Made by a program: the position numbers and the translations under genes. 38,167 bases of DNA, taken from the IMG/VR virus record IMGVR_UViG_3300042006_000209, positions 1 through 38,167 of that record; one strand, given 5' to 3'. The DNA is from a virus. The notes under the pieces were generated by a model. The model did no database searches. It saw only the letters and a program-made list of their open reading frames with translations, and had not been told where the DNA came from. Each line of letters starts with the position of its first letter. Position 1 is the stretch's first letter. Shown one piece after another: positions 11,865 to 13,835 of the stretch.

Positions 11865-12356
11865 CTAGGCGTTGTCGGTGTCCGCGCAGCTCGGGTACGA
11901 GAGCGAGAGCACCGCCAGACCGGCCGACGGCGTACCGTCCGCCGTGGCGTAGTTGGCGCCGTAGACGATGTCTCCGGCCACCACCGCGTCATCCACCGTG
12001 CCCGCCGTCGCCGTCAGGTACACCGTGGCACCAGCGGCGGCCGTCGCGGACTTCGCCACCGCCGCACCGGACACTTGCACCCACCCGTAGGTGGTGGTGG
12101 AACTGAGCGCGGCCATCATCACGCCGACGAGGCCCTTGCTCCGGGTGGTGGCGAGGGCCGTCACGCCCGTGTACGGGTTGTACGTGACGACGGAGCCCAC
12201 GGCGCCGTTGGCCACGCCCTTGACGTAGACGAACTCGCCCGCGCCGTAGGTGGTGTCCTGCGCCTCGACGCGGGTACCGAAGGGGTGCTGCTGGGTGCTG
12301 GAGGCTTCCTCGATGCGCTGGCCGCCAAGGAGCGTGTCACTTCGTCCGAATGCCAT
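11865..12356 (-). CDS. Capsid decoration-like protein
   Basis: 163 aa, Gly/Ala/Thr/Val-rich and beta-like, without Trp-rich or enzymatic motifs (AVGSVVTYNPYTGVTAL, then GWVQVSGAAVAKSA). This composition and size are typical of head decoration or stabilising proteins coded beside the major capsid gene. Here the homing endonuclease gene separates the two. The assignment is by composition and location, not by a diagnostic motif. Confidence 0.65.
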   Translation of the reverse strand: MAFGRSDTLLGGQRIEEASSTQQHPFGTRVEAQDTTYGAGEFVYVKGVANGAVGSVVTYNPYTGVTALATTRSKGLVGVMMAALSSTTTYGWVQVSGAAVAKSATAAAGATVYLTATAGTVDDAVVAGDIVYGANYATADGTPSAGLAVLSLSYPSCADTDNA

Positions 12357-12359
12357 GTG

Positions 12360-12836
12360 CTACACAGCCTTTCTGTGCCGCTTGTTCGTATTGGATACGC
12401 TCCACGTCGTCCAGCGGCAGTTGGTCGGCGTGTAATCACCGTCGTTGTCGATGCGGTCCAGCACTCCGGTGGGTTCGCCCATGTCGGCATAGAAGTTCTC
12501 GAACTTCTGCCAGCGCTCGCACACCGAAATCCCTCGACCGCCGTAGTTCTTGTAGGCCCTGTGCCGGGCGTTCTGGCACCGCGCCTTCATAGAGGACCAC
12601 ACGGCGTAGACCTTGGTGCCCTCCATGCCGTGCTTCGTCGAGCGCTCGCGGGACAGGCAGCCACACGACTTCGTGACTCCCGACCGAAGGGCGGCCCACT
12701 GCACGGACTTCTCGGTCCCACAATCACAGCGGACGCGAAAGTACCGGATGCGCCCCTTGGAGCGCGCGGTTACTCGCGATTCCGCCTCCTGTAGCACCGT
12801 CAGCATTCCGAATCGATTCCCCGTGATGTCGGCCAT
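12360..12836 (-). CDS. HNH-type homing endonuclease inserted in capsid operon
   Basis: 158 aa. The N-terminal zinc-ribbon half has CDCG (37-40) and SCGC (57-60). The second half has YKNYGGRGISVCERW (95-109) and the signature LDRIDNDGDYTPTNCRW (126-142), as in free-standing phage HNH-like homing nucleases. Such genes spread by cutting uninvaded alleles in co-infecting phages. It splits the usual capsid/decoration pair. Its SD lies inside a perfect hairpin (12839-12858), and a promoter-like TATACT lies just upstream, suggesting separate, tightly controlled expression. Confidence 0.85.
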   Translation of the reverse strand: MADITGNRFGMLTVLQEAESRVTARSKGRIRYFRVRCDCGTEKSVQWAALRSGVTKSCGCLSRERSTKHGMEGTKVYAVWSSMKARCQNARHRAYKNYGGRGISVCERWQKFENFYADMGEPTGVLDRIDNDGDYTPTNCRWTTWSVSNTNKRHRKAV

Positions 12837-12838
12837 GT

Positions 12839-12858
12839 GTCCTCCTTTGACGGAGGAC
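12839..12858 (-). promoter_or_regulatory. RNA hairpin hiding the SD of the homing endonuclease
   Basis: On the minus strand GTCCTCC, the loop GTCAAA and GGAGGAC form a perfect seven-pair stem. The 3' arm contains the GGAGG that should recruit ribosomes for the ATG at 12836. Read-through mRNA from the capsid gene would carry both arms and be poorly translated. There is no U-tract, so it is not a terminator. Confidence 0.6.
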
Positions 12859-12864
12859 AGTATA
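12859..12864 (-). promoter_or_regulatory. Candidate -10 (TATACT) for the endonuclease gene
   Basis: TATACT on the minus strand is five of six to the sigma-70 consensus. It lies directly before the hairpin, so a start ~7 bases downstream would fall near base 12852, after the 5' arm. The best -35 (GAGACT, 18-base spacer) is weak. Confidence 0.4.
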
Positions 12865-12869
12865 GCCGA

Positions 12870-13835
12870 TTATGCGCCCGTGAGTCTCCCTTGGAACTGG
12901 GCGCCGGAGCAGGTGAGGTTGCCGGCGAAGGCCAGGATCTGAACCTCCGCGTCTTGGTTGGTGGGCACGCGTCGGTTGGGCGAGAGCGGCACCATGTTGC
13001 GCTGGGAGTGGGGCCGCCAGTGCAGGTACTTGGTGTTGAGGAAGTACATGGTTTTCGCGGTGGCGTACCCACCGATGCCGCCGTCGAGCACCACGTCGGC
13101 ATCCATGAACTTCACCGAGGGGAAACCGAGCTTCGCGGTGTCCGTGCCGGTGAAGCGCTGGAGGGCCTGGAGGCTGGCCATGTACACCGCCCACGCGGTG
13201 CCATCCGCGATGATGAGGTCCGGCCGGTCCGCGCCGCGCGTGCACGAGGCCCACAGGGTGTTCATGTACCCCTGGATGTTGCTGGAGGTGAGGGCGACGC
13301 CGGGGCTCTGCACCTGCGAGCGCCAGAACGTCCACGTGGCCCGGTCCACGCCGCCGTAGGTGCCGGTGGCGGGGTTGACGGGCACCGCAGCATCCAGCCC
13401 GACGAGTTGCTTGCCACCGTTGGCAGTGCCATCCGAGTAGAGGGCGGCCGAGATGAGGTTGGCCATGGTGGACTCGGCGACGTTGATTCGTCCCTCCATC
13501 AGGTCGATCATCGCCTCCTTGCCGCTGTTCTGGAGCATCTCCAGGCCCGACATGACGACGGGCACGGCGGCCTGCTTGATGGCGAACTCAGCCGCGCTGA
13601 TGACGTCCTGTGCCGAGGTGGGCAGCGTGTCGTAGCCGGAGTACCACCCGGCGTTGCTGTTCTCCGCGAAAGCCAGCTCCTCGTAGATGAGCCGGCCGCC
13701 AGAGAAGGTGCGCTCGGCACGGCCCTGCTGAAGCTTGGCCAGAAGTGCGTTGTTCTTGGAGACGTTGTCGCGAATCTTCTTGGACCGCGACTCGATGGTG
13801 GTGGCGATGATGTCGGAAACGTTCGGGAAAGCCAT
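12870..13835 (-). CDS. Major capsid protein
   Basis: 321 aa. The N-terminus MAFPNVSDIIATTIESRSKK with DNVSKNNALLAKL and the GGRLIYEELAFAEN segment match the major head proteins of Burkholderia-type podoviruses as I know them, presumed to have the HK97 fold. The region WTFWRSQVQSP and the C-terminal NLTCSGAQFQGRL also fit. The position after the scaffold gene agrees. Expression should be the highest in the operon. The stop is TAA, 34 bases before the ATG of the homing nuclease gene. Confidence 0.9.
   Translation of the reverse strand: MAFPNVSDIIATTIESRSKKIRDNVSKNNALLAKLQQGRAERTFSGGRLIYEELAFAENSNAGWYSGYDTLPTSAQDVISAAEFAIKQAAVPVVMSGLEMLQNSGKEAMIDLMEGRINVAESTMANLISAALYSDGTANGGKQLVGLDAAVPVNPATGTYGGVDRATWTFWRSQVQSPGVALTSSNIQGYMNTLWASCTRGADRPDLIIADGTAWAVYMASLQALQRFTGTDTAKLGFPSVKFMDADVVLDGGIGGYATAKTMYFLNTKYLHWRPHSQRNMVPLSPNRRVPTNQDAEVQILAFAGNLTCSGAQFQGRLTGA

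Follow-up and report, generated by a model that had tools for sequence, protein, structure and literature searches.

The homing endonucleases I-TevI, I-TevII and I-TevIII of phage T4, together with T4 segB and mobE of Aeromonas phage Aeh1, have ribosome-binding sites (RBS) that are hidden in RNA hairpins until a promoter inside the stem or adjoining it frees them (PMC2988022, PMC3014915). The T4 genes e (lysozyme) and soc, which are not nucleases, use similar RNA structures that keep a late protein off early transcripts (PMC2988022, PMC3014915). In T4 the homing nuclease gene segD separates the major capsid gene, gene 23, from gene 24 and is apparently poorly expressed (PMC2988022). An open-access literature search returned no report of such a switch outside the T4-like phages, a result that does not exclude one.

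We analysed a whole virus record of 38,167 bases with a GC content of 67.5% (the window). A preliminary description had proposed that this unrelated phage has reached the T4 switch, keeping a nuclease silent during capsid synthesis. The precedent it drew on, RBS hairpins and separate promoters in free-standing and I-TevI-type T4 nucleases, is sound (PMC2988022), and the hairpin and the architecture of the locus agree with the proposal; the timing would be the opposite of that in T4. We consider it probable that a hairpin over the Shine-Dalgarno (SD) sequence silences the nuclease on capsid RNA and that the gene's own sigma70-like promoter frees the SD. Comparison with other loci supports this interpretation beyond chance.

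Like the three I-Tev genes, the window gene encodes a (putative) homing endonuclease, and on the long RNA the 3' arm of a predicted hairpin holds its RBS; its candidate promoter is so placed that a short RNA would lack the 5' arm. The I-Tev genes lie in introns of early or middle genes and use T4 late promoters, whereas the window gene is free-standing, sits behind the capsid gene and has a sigma70-like -10 box; the hairpins have no sequence relation. The device would be the same and the timing presumably opposite, because the T4 hairpin silences early and middle RNA until a late promoter frees the site, while here it would be the late capsid RNA that is silenced. Both segB and mobE are, like the window gene, free-standing nuclease genes with RBS hairpins, and mobE is also of the HNH type, but they belong to T4-type phages, use late promoters and occupy other genomic sites. 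Genes e and soc share the RNA device, with timing opposite to that proposed here. The position of segD beside the capsid gene is similar, but it is in reverse orientation with flanking terminators and has no RBS hairpin. The T4 late promoter TATAAATA was not found at the site, and the capsid and its neighbours are of the Mx8/phrog_9953 type, not T4-like. Computed folding does place the RBS in a hairpin on the read-through RNA, as in T4-type control. Judged from sequence, the window switch is one that works like the T4 systems and is not a member by descent: the phage type, promoter, hairpin and presumed reversal of timing all differ.

The capsid-nuclease junction and its hairpin

The minus-strand head-gene operon of the window resembles that of the Myxococcus phages Mx8 and Mx9. 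The major capsid protein gene, the source of the read-through RNA (13835..12870, minus; phrog_9953, E 1e-116; NCBIfam NF033394, E 3.2e-99), has 71% DNA identity with the Mx8 and Mx9 capsid genes. Directly behind it, as already described, is an HNH endonuclease gene of 158 aa (12836..12360, minus; phrog_374, E 4.5e-56) that in an alignment keeps the family's invariant residues. The HNH protein is matched by PHROGs and was not recognised by Pfam or NCBIfam profiles; a profile search of solved structures with it gave nothing useful. Next comes a virion structural gene, the usual capsid neighbour in Mx8 and Mx9 (12356..11865, minus; phrog_29386, E 2.4e-31). This head gene begins 3 nt past the HNH stop, and AAAGG, which is likely to be its SD, falls within the HNH coding region (window 12340-12380, minus).

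In Mx8 and Mx9 the corresponding head gene directly follows the capsid gene with nothing between, and the HNH gene was not found in any of 84 capsid relatives; it is therefore most simply read as an insertion. The gene thus has two features of a free-standing homing endonuclease gene, an HNH domain and sporadic presence at a site that is empty in relatives.

Only 33 bases separate the capsid stop from the HNH start, and they hold both the -10-like box and the SD hairpin. The stop TAA (12872-12870, minus) is followed by tcggc and then by the hexamer TATACT (12864..12859, minus), which adjoins the hairpin directly, as had been reported; its last T is the closing base of the stem and the first base of the 5' arm, TGTCCTCC (12859..12852). 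The loop GTCAAA (12851..12846) leads into the 3' arm, GGAGGACA (12845..12838), then a C, then the ATG start codon (12836-12834). The SD, AAGGAGG (12847..12841), lies in the loop and 3' arm, with most of it in the arm, 4 nt before the ATG. The preliminary description had a perfect seven-pair hairpin containing the gene's only SD; with the closing T-A counted, the stem-loop TGTCCTCC-GTCAAA-GGAGGACA (12859..12838, minus) has eight perfect pairs, and the SD inside it is indeed the only one.

The sense strand folds into this hairpin at -14.9 kcal/mol (z -4.9, matched by 0 of 200 shuffles). In a longer context an outer helix also pairs CGGCUAU with the start-codon region around AUGGCCG (-32.6 kcal/mol, z -2.85). 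When the upstream DNA was shuffled and the SD held fixed, an equally good stem arose in 34 of 20,000 sequences (0.17%). The computed cost of opening the SD is 16.9 kcal/mol in the long RNA and 1.0 in an RNA beginning at 12851/12852. From 12851 the stem is gone, and the SD bases have a mean computed probability of 0.77 of being unpaired, up from 0.29. The proposal that read-through RNA would carry the hairpin and a short RNA would lack it is thus matched by computed folding, which seals the SD in the one and opens it in the other, and the hairpin likely keeps the SD closed on capsid RNA. An exact search of all viral contigs for the hairpin plus start gave two matches, both to a different gene with a different, unrelated stem, and Rfam gave no match in the window or in 19 relatives. 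The window hairpin was rejected as a terminator: no T run follows it and it is absent from the terminator scan.

The putative promoter

RNA synthesis would be expected to start 7-8 nt past TATACT, at 12852 or 12851. As 12851 (a G) is the first loop base, an RNA from there would lack the whole 5' arm. Hexamers scoring at least 7 as a -10 box are rare in the window: the plus strand has none and the minus strand three. Two of the three are tyrosine-threonine codons inside a coding gene, leaving TATACT as the sole extragenic one in 76 kb of strand. No recognisable -35 box lies upstream (the best is GAGACT, 3/6, with a spacer of 18), no TGn extension was found, and a two-box promoter scan called no promoter at the window. 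We call the box sigma70-like. From the absence of a -35 box, the window promoter is a prediction. The claim that a promoter uncovers the SD finds partial support in the placement of the box, the computed switch and the comparisons below; the -10 hexamer is the one promoter element visible. That TATACT is an active promoter is plausible.

The mechanism we propose starts with a free-standing HNH homing-endonuclease gene that would have taken up a place between the major capsid gene and the head gene after it. On capsid read-through RNA its SD would be paired, and its start codon too through the outer helix, so that an abundant capsid message would give little nuclease. A sigma70-like promoter, with its -10 box TATACT abutting the hairpin, would produce a short RNA from about 12851 without the 5' arm and with the SD free. 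The nuclease would then be made from its own short RNA only, presumably ahead of the late capsid burst or separately from it.

It could instead be that the hairpin silences and there is no dedicated promoter, with the nuclease trickling out as the hairpin breathes and TATACT present by chance. We think this unlikely. The lack of a -35 box and a TGn extension fits such a reading, as do the post-capsid HNH genes L162, L158 and, weakly, L126, whose SD hairpins have no well-placed -10 box, and the many free-standing nucleases of T4 that have no promoter of their own (PMC2988022). A chance TATACT sits poorly with the rarity of such hexamers in the window, and also with L006, the nearest capsid relative (74% identity), where the same placement is repeated by the only strong -10 box on the plus strand of a 4.4 kb locus.

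The same site in capsid relatives

In L006 the capsid stop and what follows read TAG-cgaatgtgtg-TATAAT and then directly CGCCTCCGAAG-ctaata-CTTCGGAGGCG-agc-ATG, so that TATAAT abuts a 12-pair SD hairpin. The gene it precedes encodes a zinc-finger/DUF723 protein that matches phrog_559 and phrog_3339, not phrog_374; phrog_3339 carries the name homing endonuclease. A nuclease non-homologous to the window HNH protein thus occupies the same post-capsid site. The computed SD opening cost in L006 falls from 17.6 kcal/mol in the long RNA to 2.2 in the short, and the same switch is computed for L148, L404, L330 and L122.

A protein search found HNH genes 40-48% identical to the window protein behind phrog_9953-type capsid genes in L158, L404 and L408; the gene after the L404 HNH gene resembles the window's next head gene. 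The preliminary description had suggested looking for the same hairpin upstream of homologues. SD hairpins do recur in these three, with stem scores of 28.6, 20 and 14.8 (window 21, L006 32), but their sequences are unrelated and the exact hairpin does not recur. From these sequences, the trick known from T4 seems to have arisen repeatedly, in unrelated phages with the same arrangement at the same spot.

Among 51 post-capsid gene starts tested in capsid relatives, an SD stem scoring at least 20 was found only in L006, and in none of the 50 ordinary genes. The hairpin could also be opened by ribosomes finishing the capsid gene, in which case nuclease would track capsid translation at a low ratio. 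The capsid stop in the window is just 10 nt upstream of the stem, near enough for loosening of the outer helix, but the inner eight-pair stem begins, by what is generally known of ribosomes, at the edge of a terminating ribosome or past it. The nuclease starts of the other post-capsid hairpin cases, 64-90 nt past the capsid stop, are too far away for such coupling, which we judge very improbable. It is hardly credible that the hairpin serves the 3' end of the capsid message, as a terminator or stabiliser that overlaps the SD incidentally: 37 of the 51 capsid relatives have some hairpin past the capsid stop, often terminator-like, but most of these are upstream of the SD, and the sole strong one on an SD is that of a nuclease gene. 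In L074 it is a major capsid gene whose own SD is covered, by a 10-pair stem (CTCAAGGTTG/CAACCTTGAG) immediately ahead of the start of that gene.

Hairpins and predicted promoters across HNH genes

A survey of 324 loci gave 258 non-redundant HNH genes, 180 of them with a recognisable SD; starts and SDs are predictions. SD stems scoring at least 20 occur in 13 of the 180, against 11 of 690 other ORFs of the surveyed loci (p=2.5e-4), counts that are approximate, as the scoring of perfect stems overlooks bulged hairpins and one of the stems counted, L086, belongs to another structure. Only a minority of HNH genes carry SD hairpins of this kind. They are concentrated behind major capsid genes, in 6 of 11 such HNH genes and 7 of 247 elsewhere (p=1.8e-6, to be read knowing that the capsid link was first noticed through hairpin-bearing loci). 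The 11 were found by clustering upstream genes, and their capsids, phrog_283 or phrog_9953, were classified by protein clusters and profile search, independently of the leaders. No other major-head family with two or more members was found among the 89 other upstream ORFs, where single cases could be missed. SD hairpins are no more frequent under a same-strand upstream ORF (10/193) than an opposite-strand one (3/50, with doubtful ORFs among the opposite-strand calls), which weighs against a simple read-through story.

Among HNH hairpins with stems scoring at least 12, the window and L006 excluded, 7 -10-like boxes would place the RNA start 4-8 nt within the 5' arm, where upstream bins predict 2.25 (p=0.008). 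At other thresholds p is 0.02-0.05, so that the excess is only modestly significant overall (0.008-0.05). The clearest promoters of this geometry are in L404 (GTGACA-17-TGgCATAAT) and L330 (TGgTATAAT). In L340, whose HNH gene follows a P22-like capsid gene, the 5' arm of a 14-pair SD hairpin is overlapped by TTGACT-17-TATAAA, and RNA would start within the loop (L340:920-985), making it a clean test case for the switch. No good -10 box was found at the uncovering position for the longest hairpins, L162, L378, L092 and L158. Across HNH genes, the sequences make a good case for hairpins and a moderate one for promoters.

In HNH genes that lack an SD, -10 boxes peak sharply 11-14 nt ahead of the start codon (16 against 2.6 expected, p=2e-8), as in L105, L130, L144, L153, L187, L214, L257, L344, L446 and others. 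L187 has TTGACA-18-TATAATacaaccATG, as expected for a leaderless RNA. Leaderless start codons are poorly used within a long RNA, so leaderless-type promoters may serve the same end as the SD hairpins. In mycobacteriophages, hidden HNH genes have already been suggested to undergo leaderless translation (PMC11855218).

Another group of HNH genes (L086, L093, L094, L095, L128, L140, L254, L256, L427 and L432) has a conserved leader about 60 nt before the start. It runs from a TAAAAT-like box through a short gap to a GGGCC-type hairpin, which often encloses a second, nested stem, and on to CTTGAC or CTGACCAACACC and the SD. A rough alignment of eight sequences has compensating changes in 5 of 7 predicted pairs, and Rfam gave no match among the leaders scanned; this is possibly an unnamed RNA motif.

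We suggest, tentatively and at slightly less than even confidence, that homing nucleases of phages outside the T4 group have repeatedly evolved translation from their own transcript only. This would be achieved either by an SD hairpin with a promoter in or next to its 5' arm, favoured behind the capsid gene, or, where an SD is lacking, by a leaderless promoter. The nuclease would then stay silent on the abundant late RNA that reads through its gene, with timing opposite to that in T4. The switch is short and self-contained, and reporters could test it directly. If the proposal is true, selfish nucleases in unrelated phages have repeatedly evolved a form of control regarded as a property of T4-like phages. 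It would also explain how nuclease genes can sit behind a phage's most strongly expressed gene without being overproduced.
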